From Desulfovibrionaceae bacterium (lineage in GTDB: Bacteria; Desulfobacterota; Desulfovibrionia; Desulfovibrionales; Desulfovibrionaceae), in NCBI GenBank assembly GCA_009773665.1, contig WSYE01000003.1, positions 1 through 64,000 of the forward strand: a stretch of 64,000 nt of DNA. Direction: 5' to 3'. Made by a program: the position numbers and the translations under genes. Of this stretch, positions 56,151 through 59,684 are shown one piece after another (the stretch's first letter is position 1; the number at the start of each line of letters is the position of its first letter). The notes under the pieces were generated by a model, which saw only the letters and a list, made by a program, of their open reading frames with translations, had not been told where the DNA came from and ran no database searches.

Positions 56151-56963
56151 ATGCTGACACTGCACAACATCTCCAAACACTACCAGGACCATGTGGCCCT
56201 GCATAACACTACCCTTACCTTTGCGCCCGGCGCTTTCAACGTGCTGCTGGGGCCTTCGGGCGCGGGCAAATCCACGCTGTTGCGGTCCTGTAACCTTCTG
56301 GCGGAACCTTCAACCGGATATGTAGAGGCTGACGGCATAGGTGCTGTGCGCTCGCAAAGCCAAAGCCGCCAGCTGCGCCTTATGACGGCTTGTGTGTTCC
56401 AGCAGCACCAGCTTATTTTGCGGCAAAGCGTACTGACCAACGTGCTTAATGGCCGCGTGGGCGCGCGTCCTCTTTGGGCGGGCCTTCTTCCCACACCCAG
56501 GGCCGACATAGAAGACGCCCTGCGTTGCCTTGAACGCGTTGGCCTTGAAGACTATGCCCTGACACGGGCCGGCAGCCTTTCCGGCGGGCAACAGCAACGC
56601 GTGGGCATTGCCCGTGCGCTTATGCAAAAGCCTCGCATACTTCTGGCAGACGAGCCTGTGGCCAGCCTTGACCCGACCCGGGCAGAAGAAGTGCTGGGTC
56701 TGTTGCACAACATCTGCCGCGAAGACGGCCTGTGCGCGGTGGTAAGCCTGCACCAGGTCCGCTTTGCCAAACGCTTTGCCGACCGCATCATTGCCCTGCG
56801 CGCGGGCCGCGTCGTTTTTGACGGTACGCCAGAGGTTCTGACGCAGGAAGCCCTGACGCACATTTATGCGCCACAGACTGAAACACCCCTTTGTTCTGCC
56901 ATAAAACCGCAACGCCCCACCGAACCGCCTGTCGCTTTTAACCAAACCGCGCGGGCCAGTTGA
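56151..56963 (+). CDS. ptxA: Phosphite/phosphonate ABC transporter ATPase (PtxA/PhnC type)
   Basis: A 270-residue ATPase of an inner-membrane importer. Walker [18 protein letters not shown], the PhnC-like Q-loop section [23 protein letters not shown], signature [16 protein letters not shown], Walker [14 protein letters not shown] and H-loop [18 protein letters not shown]. The VLNGR and VSLHQV patterns are those of the phosphonate/phosphite branch. GTGGGAGG lies before ATG 56151. It heads a four-gene operon ending in a PtxD-like dehydrogenase, so phosphite is the likely substrate; phosphonate uptake is the alternative. Confidence 0.88.
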
Positions 56964-57031
56964 ACCCTGTGCGGGCCTTTCCGTTAGGTCTTTATATCTA
57001 CATCAACTCTTTCTTTTGCGAGGATACCACC

Positions 57032-57889
57032 GTGCATCGTTTGCTTGTCGCCCTTTTTCTGTTTTGCGCCCTTATTGCCCACGGCACAGCCGTGGCCGCC
57101 GACGCCGACCCCAAAGTGTTGAAGGTGGCCCTGCTGCCCGACGAAAGCCCCAGTACCATCATCAAGAACAACCAGACCTTGAAGGCCTATCTTGAAAAAG
57201 CCCTGGACAAAAAAGTCGACCTGGTCGTGACGACCGACTATTCCTCCATGATTGAGGCCATGCGCCACGGCCGCCTTGAACTGGCTTTCTTCGGTCCTCT
57301 TTCCTATGTCATGGCAAAGTCCAAATGCGACATAGAGCCGTTTGCCGCCATGCAGAAAAAAGGCAAGAATACCTATCGCGGCGTGGTTATCGCCAACACC
57401 AGCGCGGGCATCAACACCCTGGAAGACATCAAGGGCAAGAAGATGGCCTATGGCGACACCGCCTCCACCTCTTCGCACCTGATCCCCAAGTCACTTTTGG
57501 CGGCAAAGGGTCTGGAAGCGCGCCGCGACTATGAAGCCCACTTTGTGGGAAGCCACGATGCCGTGGCCCTGAATGTCCAAAACAACAACGCCCAGGCTGG
57601 CGGCCTTTCAGAAACCATATTTGAAGCCCTGGTGGAAAAAGGCACCATCTCCAAAGACAAAGTAAAGGTTCTTGCCGTGTCGGCAGAATTTCCCGAATAC
57701 CCCTGGACCATGCGCAGCGACCTTTCCCCCGCGCTGAAAAAACGCATTCAAGATGCCTTTGTCGATCTGACTGATCCCGCGGTGCTGAAGCCCTTCAAAG
57801 CCGACGGTTTTACCCGGATCACCGACAAAGATTACGACGTGGTGCGCGACCTGGCGAAGATTCTGAACCTTGACCTGGCTAAAATGTAA
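57032..57889 (+). CDS. ptxB: Phosphite/phosphonate-binding periplasmic protein (PtxB/PhnD type)
   Basis: A 285-residue solute-binding protein. The signal peptide is residues 1-22 ([20 protein letters not shown]). The mature part has the PhnD/PtxB layout: [68 protein letters not shown], and [20 protein letters not shown]. The S-T-S-S and Y/S residues are those that bind the phosphite or phosphonate group in this family. Start GTG 57032 has GAGGA upstream. It delivers ligand to the permease encoded two bases downstream. Confidence 0.9.
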
Positions 57890-57891
57890 GG

Positions 57892-58692
57892 ATGACCGCG
57901 GTGGAATCTACCTTTATTGTCAACAACGTCGCCCAAAATTACCGCGAACGCCTGGTGCTGATAGGCTGCATCGCCCTGGGCATAGCCCTGTGCGTTGCCT
58001 ATTCCGGCCTGGCAGATGTGCCGCGCATTCTTGAGGGCGGCCCCGCCCTGTGGCACCTGCTGGGCGAGATGACACCCCCGGACCCCAGCAACTGGCGCTC
58101 GTGGCTGGGTCCGCTTATGGACACCATCGCCATGAGCGTGGCCGGTACGTTTCTGGCCGTATGCCTTTCGCTGCCCCTGGGCTTTCTGGCGGCGGCCAAC
58201 GTTTCGCCCCACCCCGTTGTCTACCGTCTGGCACGCAGCCTGCTGAACACTTTGCGCGCCGTGCCGGAACTGATCATGGGTATTCTTTTTGTGGCGGCTG
58301 TGGGTTTTGGCGCATTACCGGGCGTGCTGGCCCTGGGTCTGCATTCCGTGGGCATGGTGGGCAAATTTTTTGCCGAAGCTGTGGAACACTGCGACCCCAA
58401 ACCCGTTGAGGCCATCCGGGCCACGGGCGCGAACCCCCTGAAAGTGCTGGTGTACGGCGTCATGCCGCAGGTGCTTCCGCAACTGGCCGACATTACCGTG
58501 TACCGCTGGGAATATAACTTTCGCGCCTCCACTGTCATGGGCATGGTGGGCGCTGGCGGCATAGGGTTTGAACTTATGGCTTCCCTCAGGCTTATGCAAT
58601 ATCGCGAAGTGTCCGCGATATTATTGCTTATTCTTGTCATGGTGACACTGGTAGACGCCCTTGGGTCGTGGTTGCGAGGAAAATGCGCATGA
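57892..58692 (+). CDS. ptxC: Phosphite/phosphonate ABC transporter permease (PtxC/PhnE type)
   Basis: A 266-residue permease with about six membrane helices. The coupling region EAIRATGANPLKVLVYGVMPQVLPQLAD and the nearby RWEYNFRASTVMGMVGAGGIGFEL are characteristic of PhnE. TIAMSVAGTFLAVCLSLPLGFLAA is a typical transmembrane core. ATG 57892 follows the ptxB stop directly, and its own stop overlaps the ptxD start (ATGA), so all four proteins are translated in close coupling. Confidence 0.9.
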   Translation: MTAVESTFIVNNVAQNYRERLVLIGCIALGIALCVAYSGLADVPRILEGGPALWHLLGEMTPPDPSNWRSWLGPLMDTIAMSVAGTFLAVCLSLPLGFLAAANVSPHPVVYRLARSLLNTLRAVPELIMGILFVAAVGFGALPGVLALGLHSVGMVGKFFAEAVEHCDPKPVEAIRATGANPLKVLVYGVMPQVLPQLADITVYRWEYNFRASTVMGMVGAGGIGFELMASLRLMQYREVSAILLLILVMVTLVDALGSWLRGKCA

Positions 58693-59684
58693 GTCAAAAA
58701 CCCCTTTGTGTGGTCACCCACTGGGTGCACCCTGAAATCATCAACTATCTTGAACCGCATTGCCGTCTTGTCGTTAACAAAACCCGCGAAACCTGGCCGC
58801 GCCAGATCCTCTTTGACCATCTCAAAGAGGCGGACGCCGCCATGATGTTTATGCCTGACTGGGTGGATGCCGAACTGCTGGACAATGCCCCCCGCCTTAA
58901 AATCGTGGGGGCAGCCCTCAAGGGCTATGACAACTTTGATGTGGACGCGCTGACGTCCAGGGGCGTGTGGCTTTCCTACGTGCCGGACCTTCTGACCATT
59001 CCCACGGCAGAGCTGACCATTGCCCTTATGCTGGCCCTGGGACGTCATGTGCTGCCAGGGGACAAACGGGTGCGCAGCGGGGCTTTTGAAGGCTGGCGGC
59101 CCATTTTTTACGGCCAGGGCCTGCACGGCTCCACCGTGGGCATCATCGGTCTGGGCCGCCTGGGCCAGGCCGTGGCCCAACGCCTGGCAGGCTGGGGCGT
59201 GAAGCTTATTGGCTATGACATTGCCGAACTGCCGGATGAACGCAAACGCGAACTTGCGCTGGCGCAAACAGATATGCCCACGCTGCTTGCCACTGCCGAC
59301 TGGGTGGTGTGCGTAAGCCCGCTGACCCCTGAATCAAAAGGGCTTTTGGGCGCGGCCGAACTGGCCGCTATGAAACCCGGCGCGTTTCTTGTCAACACCG
59401 GGCGCGGCTCGTGCGTGGACGAAGAGGCCGTGACAGAAGCCCTGGAAAAAGGCCATCTTGCAGGCTATGCCGCCGACGTCTTTGCCTTTGAAGACTGGGG
59501 GCTGGCAGACCGCCCCCGCGATGTGCCCGAGGCCCTGCGGGACCCCGGTCTGCGCACTGTGTTCACCCCGCACCTTGGATCGGCCGTGGAACAGGTGCGC
59601 ATTGATATCGCCATGGAAGCAGCCCGCAACATTGTGGACGTGCTCTGCGGCAAAGCGCCCCGAAATCCCGTAAACACAATCTGA
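58689..59684 (+). CDS. ptxD: Phosphite dehydrogenase (NAD-dependent), PtxD
   Basis: Oxidises phosphite to phosphate with NAD+, in the D-2-hydroxyacid dehydrogenase fold. At 331 residues it matches Pseudomonas stutzeri PtxD (336 aa) over its length, as I recall that sequence: MMFMPDWVDAELL, ALKGYDNFDVDALTSRGVWL, YVPDLLTIPTAELTIAL, and YAADVFAFEDWGLADRPR correspond closely. The Rossmann loop is GIIGLGRLGQAV. The key residues are in place: Lys in ALKGYDN, Arg in NTGRGSCVDEE, Glu in FAFEDW and His in TPHLGSAV. An acidic Asp after the second strand (IGYDIAE) fits NAD over NADP. Start ATG 58689 has GAGGA eight bases upstream. The gene closes the ptx operon and is followed by a terminator. Confidence 0.92.
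   Translation: MSQKPLCVVTHWVHPEIINYLEPHCRLVVNKTRETWPRQILFDHLKEADAAMMFMPDWVDAELLDNAPRLKIVGAALKGYDNFDVDALTSRGVWLSYVPDLLTIPTAELTIALMLALGRHVLPGDKRVRSGAFEGWRPIFYGQGLHGSTVGIIGLGRLGQAVAQRLAGWGVKLIGYDIAELPDERKRELALAQTDMPTLLATADWVVCVSPLTPESKGLLGAAELAAMKPGAFLVNTGRGSCVDEEAVTEALEKGHLAGYAADVFAFEDWGLADRPRDVPEALRDPGLRTVFTPHLGSAVEQVRIDIAMEAARNIVDVLCGKAPRNPVNTI

Follow-up and report, generated by a model that had tools for sequence, protein, structure and literature searches.

A Predicted Phosphite-Assimilation Operon of Desulfovibrionaceae, Probably Spread as an IS30-Family Composite Transposon and Now Cargo of a Conjugative Element

The window analysed here is a stretch of 64,000 nucleotides from a Desulfovibrionaceae bacterium (WSYE01000003.1, positions 1-64,000; its genome is called G000 below), and our subject is the four-gene operon ptxABCD at positions 56151-59684. 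Judging from sequence, we put at about 0.88 the probability that this phosphite-assimilation operon spread as an IS30-family composite transposon, that the left insertion sequence (IS) was lost, and that the operon is now cargo of an integrative and conjugative element (ICE). The operon lies in a unit that has spread between three genera of one family very recently, since it is letter-for-letter identical in five genomes belonging to them. The host would be a sulfate reducer by its family membership, which was itself told by matches to named records.

The ptxABCD Operon

56151..56963, + strand: ptxA, ATP-binding protein of an ATP-binding cassette (ABC) importer; 270 amino acids, TIGR02315 above cut-off
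57032..57889, + strand: ptxB, predicted phosphite-binding protein; 285 amino acids, GTG start, best solved relative named PtxB (4.2e-109), 8/8 ligand and cap residues
57892..58692, + strand: ptxC, importer permease; 266 amino acids, TIGR01097 above cut-off
58689..59684, + strand: ptxD, predicted NAD-type phosphite dehydrogenase; 331 amino acids, assigned by solved relatives, residues and tree
59725..59763, + strand: hairpin with a T run 3' of ptxD, probable terminator

All four frames are open, with a single stop at the end of each, and coordinates, frames and family matches agree with the original prediction, which had named these genes from the letters of the DNA. The ATGA overlap of 4 bp, from which translational coupling of the importer and dehydrogenase genes had been proposed, is seen at 58689-58692. 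A signal peptide is apparent by eye in PtxB. The hairpin that is the probable terminator was not listed by a simple scan; its region (59715-59772) folds with -23.0 kcal/mol and a z-score of -3.28. Another strong hairpin, with a 9-bp stem, stands 5' of ptxA at 56046-56078 (-21.6 kcal/mol, z -3.83).

The importer had been predicted to be of the PhnCDE/PtxABC type, and its three subunits pass curated cut-offs. PtxA scored 281.7 bits with the PhnC model (cut-off 266.1), PtxC 300.4 bits with the PhnE model (cut-off 216.7), and PtxB 251.2 with the phosphate/phosphite/phosphonate binding-protein subfamily (cut-off 112.05); with the PhnD model PtxB reached 199.9, under the cut-off of 261.1. The phosphite-ligand and cap residues examined in PtxB were the set given in parts of PMC5700983, and the tyrosine/aspartate cap and the STS-His ligand residues are kept in 8 of 8 cases, by Pseudomonas stutzeri as well as by Te_PtxB numbering.

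The closest solved relatives of PtxD are phosphite dehydrogenases (1.2e-109), the next kind being glyoxylate reductase at 4.4e-57, and all 14 distinct solved sequences with E-values up to 1e-90 are named phosphite or phosphonate dehydrogenase. Residues M53, K76, D79, W134, Y139 and R301, which we take to be those of the PtxD pocket, are all kept, and residue 175 is acidic, like that of the NAD-preferring P. stutzeri enzyme. A paralogue (L003), nearest to phosphoglycerate dehydrogenase models, is without M53, K76 and Y139. The catalytic triad of PtxD (R237, E266 and H292; given in a section of PMC10127272) is kept in the window protein as well; of the full active-site set that had been claimed, all residues tested are present.

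A tree had been set beforehand as the test by which the assignment could fail. It comprised 37 rows, of which 34 were loci, two were solved PtxDs and one was the window protein (other PtxD loci and the duplicate from Nitratidesulfovibrio liaohensis were left out), and the enzyme did not fall among other hydroxyacid dehydrogenases: the 35 PtxD rows form one clade (98/98), against an outgroup of only two presumed hydroxyacid dehydrogenases, both on long branches and one of them L003. The window PtxD stands inside a Desulfovibrionaceae clade of 15 rows (98/99), outside which, adjoining the Ralstonia enzyme, falls the PtxD of one family member (G216). The genes ptxA, ptxB and ptxC precede ptxD in all five other named Desulfovibrionaceae loci (L005-L009). 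The family cut-offs, the residues kept and the tree support the prediction that 56151-59684 is a ptxABCD operon of the assimilatory type.

An Identical Unit in Three Genera

55291..60706, + strand: unit of 5,416 bp, with full identity among five genomes from three genera; it makes up the inner and right portions of an IS30-family composite transposon, here without the left IS
55292..56026, + strand: 4Fe-4S ferredoxin-like gene (Fer4 domains), 5' end cut
60049..60706, + strand: 3' 658 bp of an IS30-family element that has lost its 5' end and retains the right inverted repeat (IS30 transposase match 1e-68)

In a survey of 288 Desulfovibrionaceae genomes, a PtxD match at 1e-80 or better was found in 18. 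The protein is 100% identical in five of the 288, namely G000, G004 and G006 of one genus, N. liaohensis (G027) of a second, and G050 of a third; in the remaining 13 of the 18 the identity is 51-63%. The third genus (g18, with G050 and G043) is presumably Desulfovibrio, since one of its genomes, G048, shares its PtxD with Desulfovibrio sp. An276. The DNA from 55291 to 60706 is string-identical in N. liaohensis, G050, G006 and G004, and the copies of the five genomes stand at four sites, one of which is common to G000 and G004.

Inheritance of the unit with the chromosome was rejected, its identity and that of PtxD being out of step with species distance: the chromosomal gene uvrA (27735-30488) is 95% identical to that of G004, 82% to that of G006 and 74-78% to that of N. 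liaohensis. We considered an assembly error unlikely, for the four sites were assembled separately, one of them in a single contig (G050), and G000 and G004 share the junction.

The cut ferredoxin-like gene is a probable hitch-hiker from the chromosome of a donor. DNA matches to this fragment occur in 97 of 285 family genomes, the five unit holders included, and no donor of the unit was found among the 285, because, apart from the unit itself in its five holders, no relative of the fragment exceeded 80% identity, over some 205 bp (N. liaohensis and its genus). At megablast sensitivity none of 72,556 plasmid records matched the unit DNA, and a single 41-base ptxD pattern had no match in viral contigs. 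A sample of 395 genomes of the phylum, searched at E 1e-100, gave matches in G000 and, for the IS30 part, in G043 only.

The Composite Transposon and the Form without the Left IS

A complete IS30-family element of 1,082 bp (transposase helix-turn-helix, E 3e-13; inverted repeats of 28 bp, 85.7%) stands before the unit in N. liaohensis and G050, and the IS30 remnant of the window is identical to this element over 658/658 bp. The right copy is 5'-truncated in all five unit genomes. Element and unit together make 6,498 bp, both parts being identical in N. liaohensis and G050, and a direct repeat of 3 bp lies at either end of the whole (TGT in N. liaohensis and AGA in G050). Once the transposon and one repeat are removed, the interrupted frames, which belong to targets with HNH and ParB domains, are continuous. 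With two IS copies, inverted repeats and a direct duplication of the target, the 6,498-bp structure is a composite transposon in both genomes. G050 has a second full copy of the IS30 element (99.7%), and the 658-bp part in G043 is 100% identical.

An ERF-superfamily gene was observed some kb from the transposon in N. liaohensis (L101:3244-3957) and in G050 (L105:18493-19218). Since both carry this gene, the regions targeted may be mobile elements related to each other.

The left IS30 is missing from the copies of the window, G004 and G006; these nevertheless begin at the very same base, and none has a 3-bp repeat around it. The window copy is a derivative and not an intact composite transposon, the left IS and the target duplication being absent. 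It is probably unable to jump by itself, since G000 (a draft of 66% completeness) gave no further match to the IS30 part.

The Probable Conjugative Carrier

50638..50654, no strand given: left attachment core, 17 bp, inside a chemotaxis-receptor gene (like a methyl-accepting chemotaxis protein, by eye)
103653-103669 of the contig, outside the window: right attachment core, the same 17 bp; the receptor gene is split between the cores
50735..51913, + strand: tyrosine integrase of the ICE (PF00589, E 1.6e-30)

The unit lies inside an element of about 53 kb between the two 17-bp cores. This element has the integrase, the direct attachment repeats and the type IV secretion genes of an ICE: a TraD-type coupling protein, VirB4, VirB6, VirB8 and VirB10-type proteins, two secretion ATPases (one VirB11-like by its place), a secretin and TcpQ. 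The Pfam scan covered 18 of about 59 called open reading frames (ORFs), and ORF calling missed the integrase.

G004 has the same ICE, and the only differences inside it are a single base (67678) and a block of about 38 bp close to 81591. The receptor-gene flanks are about 72-77% alike, with 99 of 422 aligned positions differing on the left and 112 on the right from the core outwards (gaps counted), and the right core of G004 has one base different. These flanks are different receptor genes, or very diverged ones, and the element therefore most likely integrated twice. The mobile segment on which the operon had been placed is an IS30-derived unit within an ICE. The horizontal transfer that had been claimed is borne out by 5,416 bp of 100% identity across genera, by transposon ends with target duplications, and by one ICE with two different flanks.

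Several features were observed around the unit. A 179-bp repeat (89% identical) at 52455-52633 and 60714-60891 brackets an 8-kb stretch that holds the ptx unit and a large membrane-protein gene, the second repeat copy beginning seven bases past the end of the unit. At 53246-55207, adjoining the unit on the ICE, is a gene for a protein of 653 amino acids that looks by eye like a membrane protein of glycosyltransferase kind; it had no NCBIfam or Pfam match, and a 68% DNA relative is present in G003. About 9 kb from the unit of G006 stands a BrxC-PglY gene of BREX phage defence (L106:15852-19289; contig C2, 45852-49289), which PADLOC matched over its full length with 1680 bits and which Pfam alone did not show as BrxC.

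Discussion

On the reading that we prefer, PtxB would take phosphite in the periplasm, PtxC and PtxA would import it with ATP, and PtxD would oxidise it with NAD to phosphate for biosynthesis. The operon would have spread as a full IS30 element, the cut ferredoxin gene, ptxABCD and a 5'-truncated IS30 copy whose right inverted repeat is intact, each insertion duplicating 3 bp of the target as seen at two sites. In the lineage of the window the left IS would then have been lost, leaving the 5,416-bp cassette that is now cargo of the ICE of about 53 kb; the same element has different receptor flanks in two species, and would have moved by conjugation.

The operon is like ptxABCD of P. stutzeri WM88 and its relatives in gene order, importer type and the residues of PtxB and PtxD; it differs in that no ptxE is seen in the unit and that PtxD belongs to a Desulfovibrionaceae subclade. 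That the importer serves a different oxyanion or else a phosphonate, that a 2-hydroxyacid is the substrate of the dehydrogenase, and that phosphite is not metabolised at all could be argued from the phosphonate names of the models that the subunits match, and from the NCBIfam matches of the dehydrogenase, none of which is named PtxD (the best, glyoxylate reductase and phosphoglycerate dehydrogenase, stay far under their cut-offs). The PtxD pocket and tree, the tyrosine-aspartate cap and ligand residues of PtxB, and the ptxABC genes before ptxD in 5/5 loci oppose this, and we hold it to be extremely improbable. Use of phosphite as an electron donor is also very unlikely. The host family is known for sulfate reducers, and the ptxED-ptdFCGHI operon of the sulfate reducer Desulfotignum phosphitoxidans, which likewise has a PtxD, is on an island flanked by transposases, according to the parts of PMC4046663 drawn on here. 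The same parts describe electron-donor use and phosphite uptake by PtdC, a protein of the major facilitator superfamily, with no ABC importer, whereas the unit has an ATP-driven ABC importer. No ptd genes, and so no ptdFCGHI beside ptxD, were seen among the ORFs and family matches of the 5,416-bp unit, the rest of the genome not having been searched for ptd. The absence of ptd genes and the difference from the dissimilatory cluster, both foreseen in the original prediction, hold to this extent.

The form without the left IS can also be read in two ways. The copies of the window and G006 start precisely at the point at which the left IS30 of the composite form stops, and recombination of two direct IS30 copies would yield a 5,416-bp circle of one IS30 fragment and cargo, which could have inserted after opening at the right end of IS30. 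Neither copy is flanked by a 3-bp duplication, and loss of one copy after insertion is a documented route in the IS30 family: for ISApl1-mcr-1, excerpts of PMC5821093 describe rare forms without the upstream copy and explain forms without one or both IS copies by deletion after insertion. Insertion as a circle is accordingly the less probable course, and the left IS was most likely lost after insertion in the window, G004 and G006. The likeness to ISApl1-mcr-1-ISApl1 (Tn6330) extends to the direct-repeat composite of an IS30-family element (parts of PMC5821093 and PMC6349718); Tn6330 has mcr-1 as cargo and 2-bp duplications in these accounts, and the transposon described here has phosphite genes, 3-bp duplications and a right IS that is 5'-truncated in five genomes.

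Several points weigh against the reading that we prefer. That the left IS was lost is a model, because no empty site was found for the insertion in the window or for that in G006: the left flank of the window matched G000, G004 and a 68% gene in G003, and the joined flanks of G006 matched either side only and never across the junction. The catalytic triad is also present in L003, and triad residues alone cannot separate PtxD from other 2-hydroxyacid dehydrogenases; being found in these, the triad is needed but not specific. No ptxE regulator was seen in the unit, Pfam showed no relaxase among the 18 ICE ORFs scanned, and G000 is an incomplete draft. The window genome also has a second, diverged ptxABCD (contig C41, 40251-43735; L002, L036), with PtxD 60% and PtxB 79% identical to the mobile copy, so the latter need not bring the host a new trait and may be redundant. 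A second ptx operon is present in G006 as well (PtxD 62% identical), and the resident operons of the two genomes align over the ptx genes only, not over the fetched flanks.

Sulfite, which sulfate reducers make as an intermediate of sulfate reduction, also weighs against this reading. PtxD of P. stutzeri is competitively inhibited by sulfite with a Ki of 16 uM (stated in a section of PMC10127272). No active-site change that would relieve this inhibition was seen among the residues checked; nor does any change at these residues mark the clade, save F for Y at position 139, in 9 of the 15 rows and not in the window protein. That a phosphite transposon is in the middle of a recent selective spread through the Desulfovibrionaceae, by IS30 jumps and then by conjugative elements, and that the PtxDs of the clade are sulfite-tolerant, is a tentative idea that we regard as doubtful.

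That ptx modules are common on plasmids, and that a sulfate reducer can have a ptx island, was already known. The ptxABCDE operon of Acinetobacter is, in parts of PMC10117892, likewise a phosphite operon on plasmid DNA near insertion sequences, differing in phylum and in the presence of the LysR regulator ptxE; the Acinetobacter plasmid PtxDs are, among the matches listed, about 51% identical to that of the window. A PtxD-like protein is present in 702 plasmid records (1e-60), all less than 60% identical to the window PtxD. In the titles and abstract starts of open-licence papers we found no ptx composite transposon or ptx ICE in sulfate reducers, and no case of ptxABCD carried by an ICE and other elements into three genera without any sequence change. 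We rate the record of transfer as unusually complete.

A predicted phosphorus-acquisition trait has here been caught during its transfer between genera of anaerobes, with the transposon, the probable loss of the IS and the conjugative carrier all visible. This suggests recent selection for phosphite in the habitats of these bacteria and bears on whether phosphite is a real source of phosphorus in anoxic systems. It also raises the testable question of how a sulfite-inhibited enzyme works in a cell that makes sulfite.

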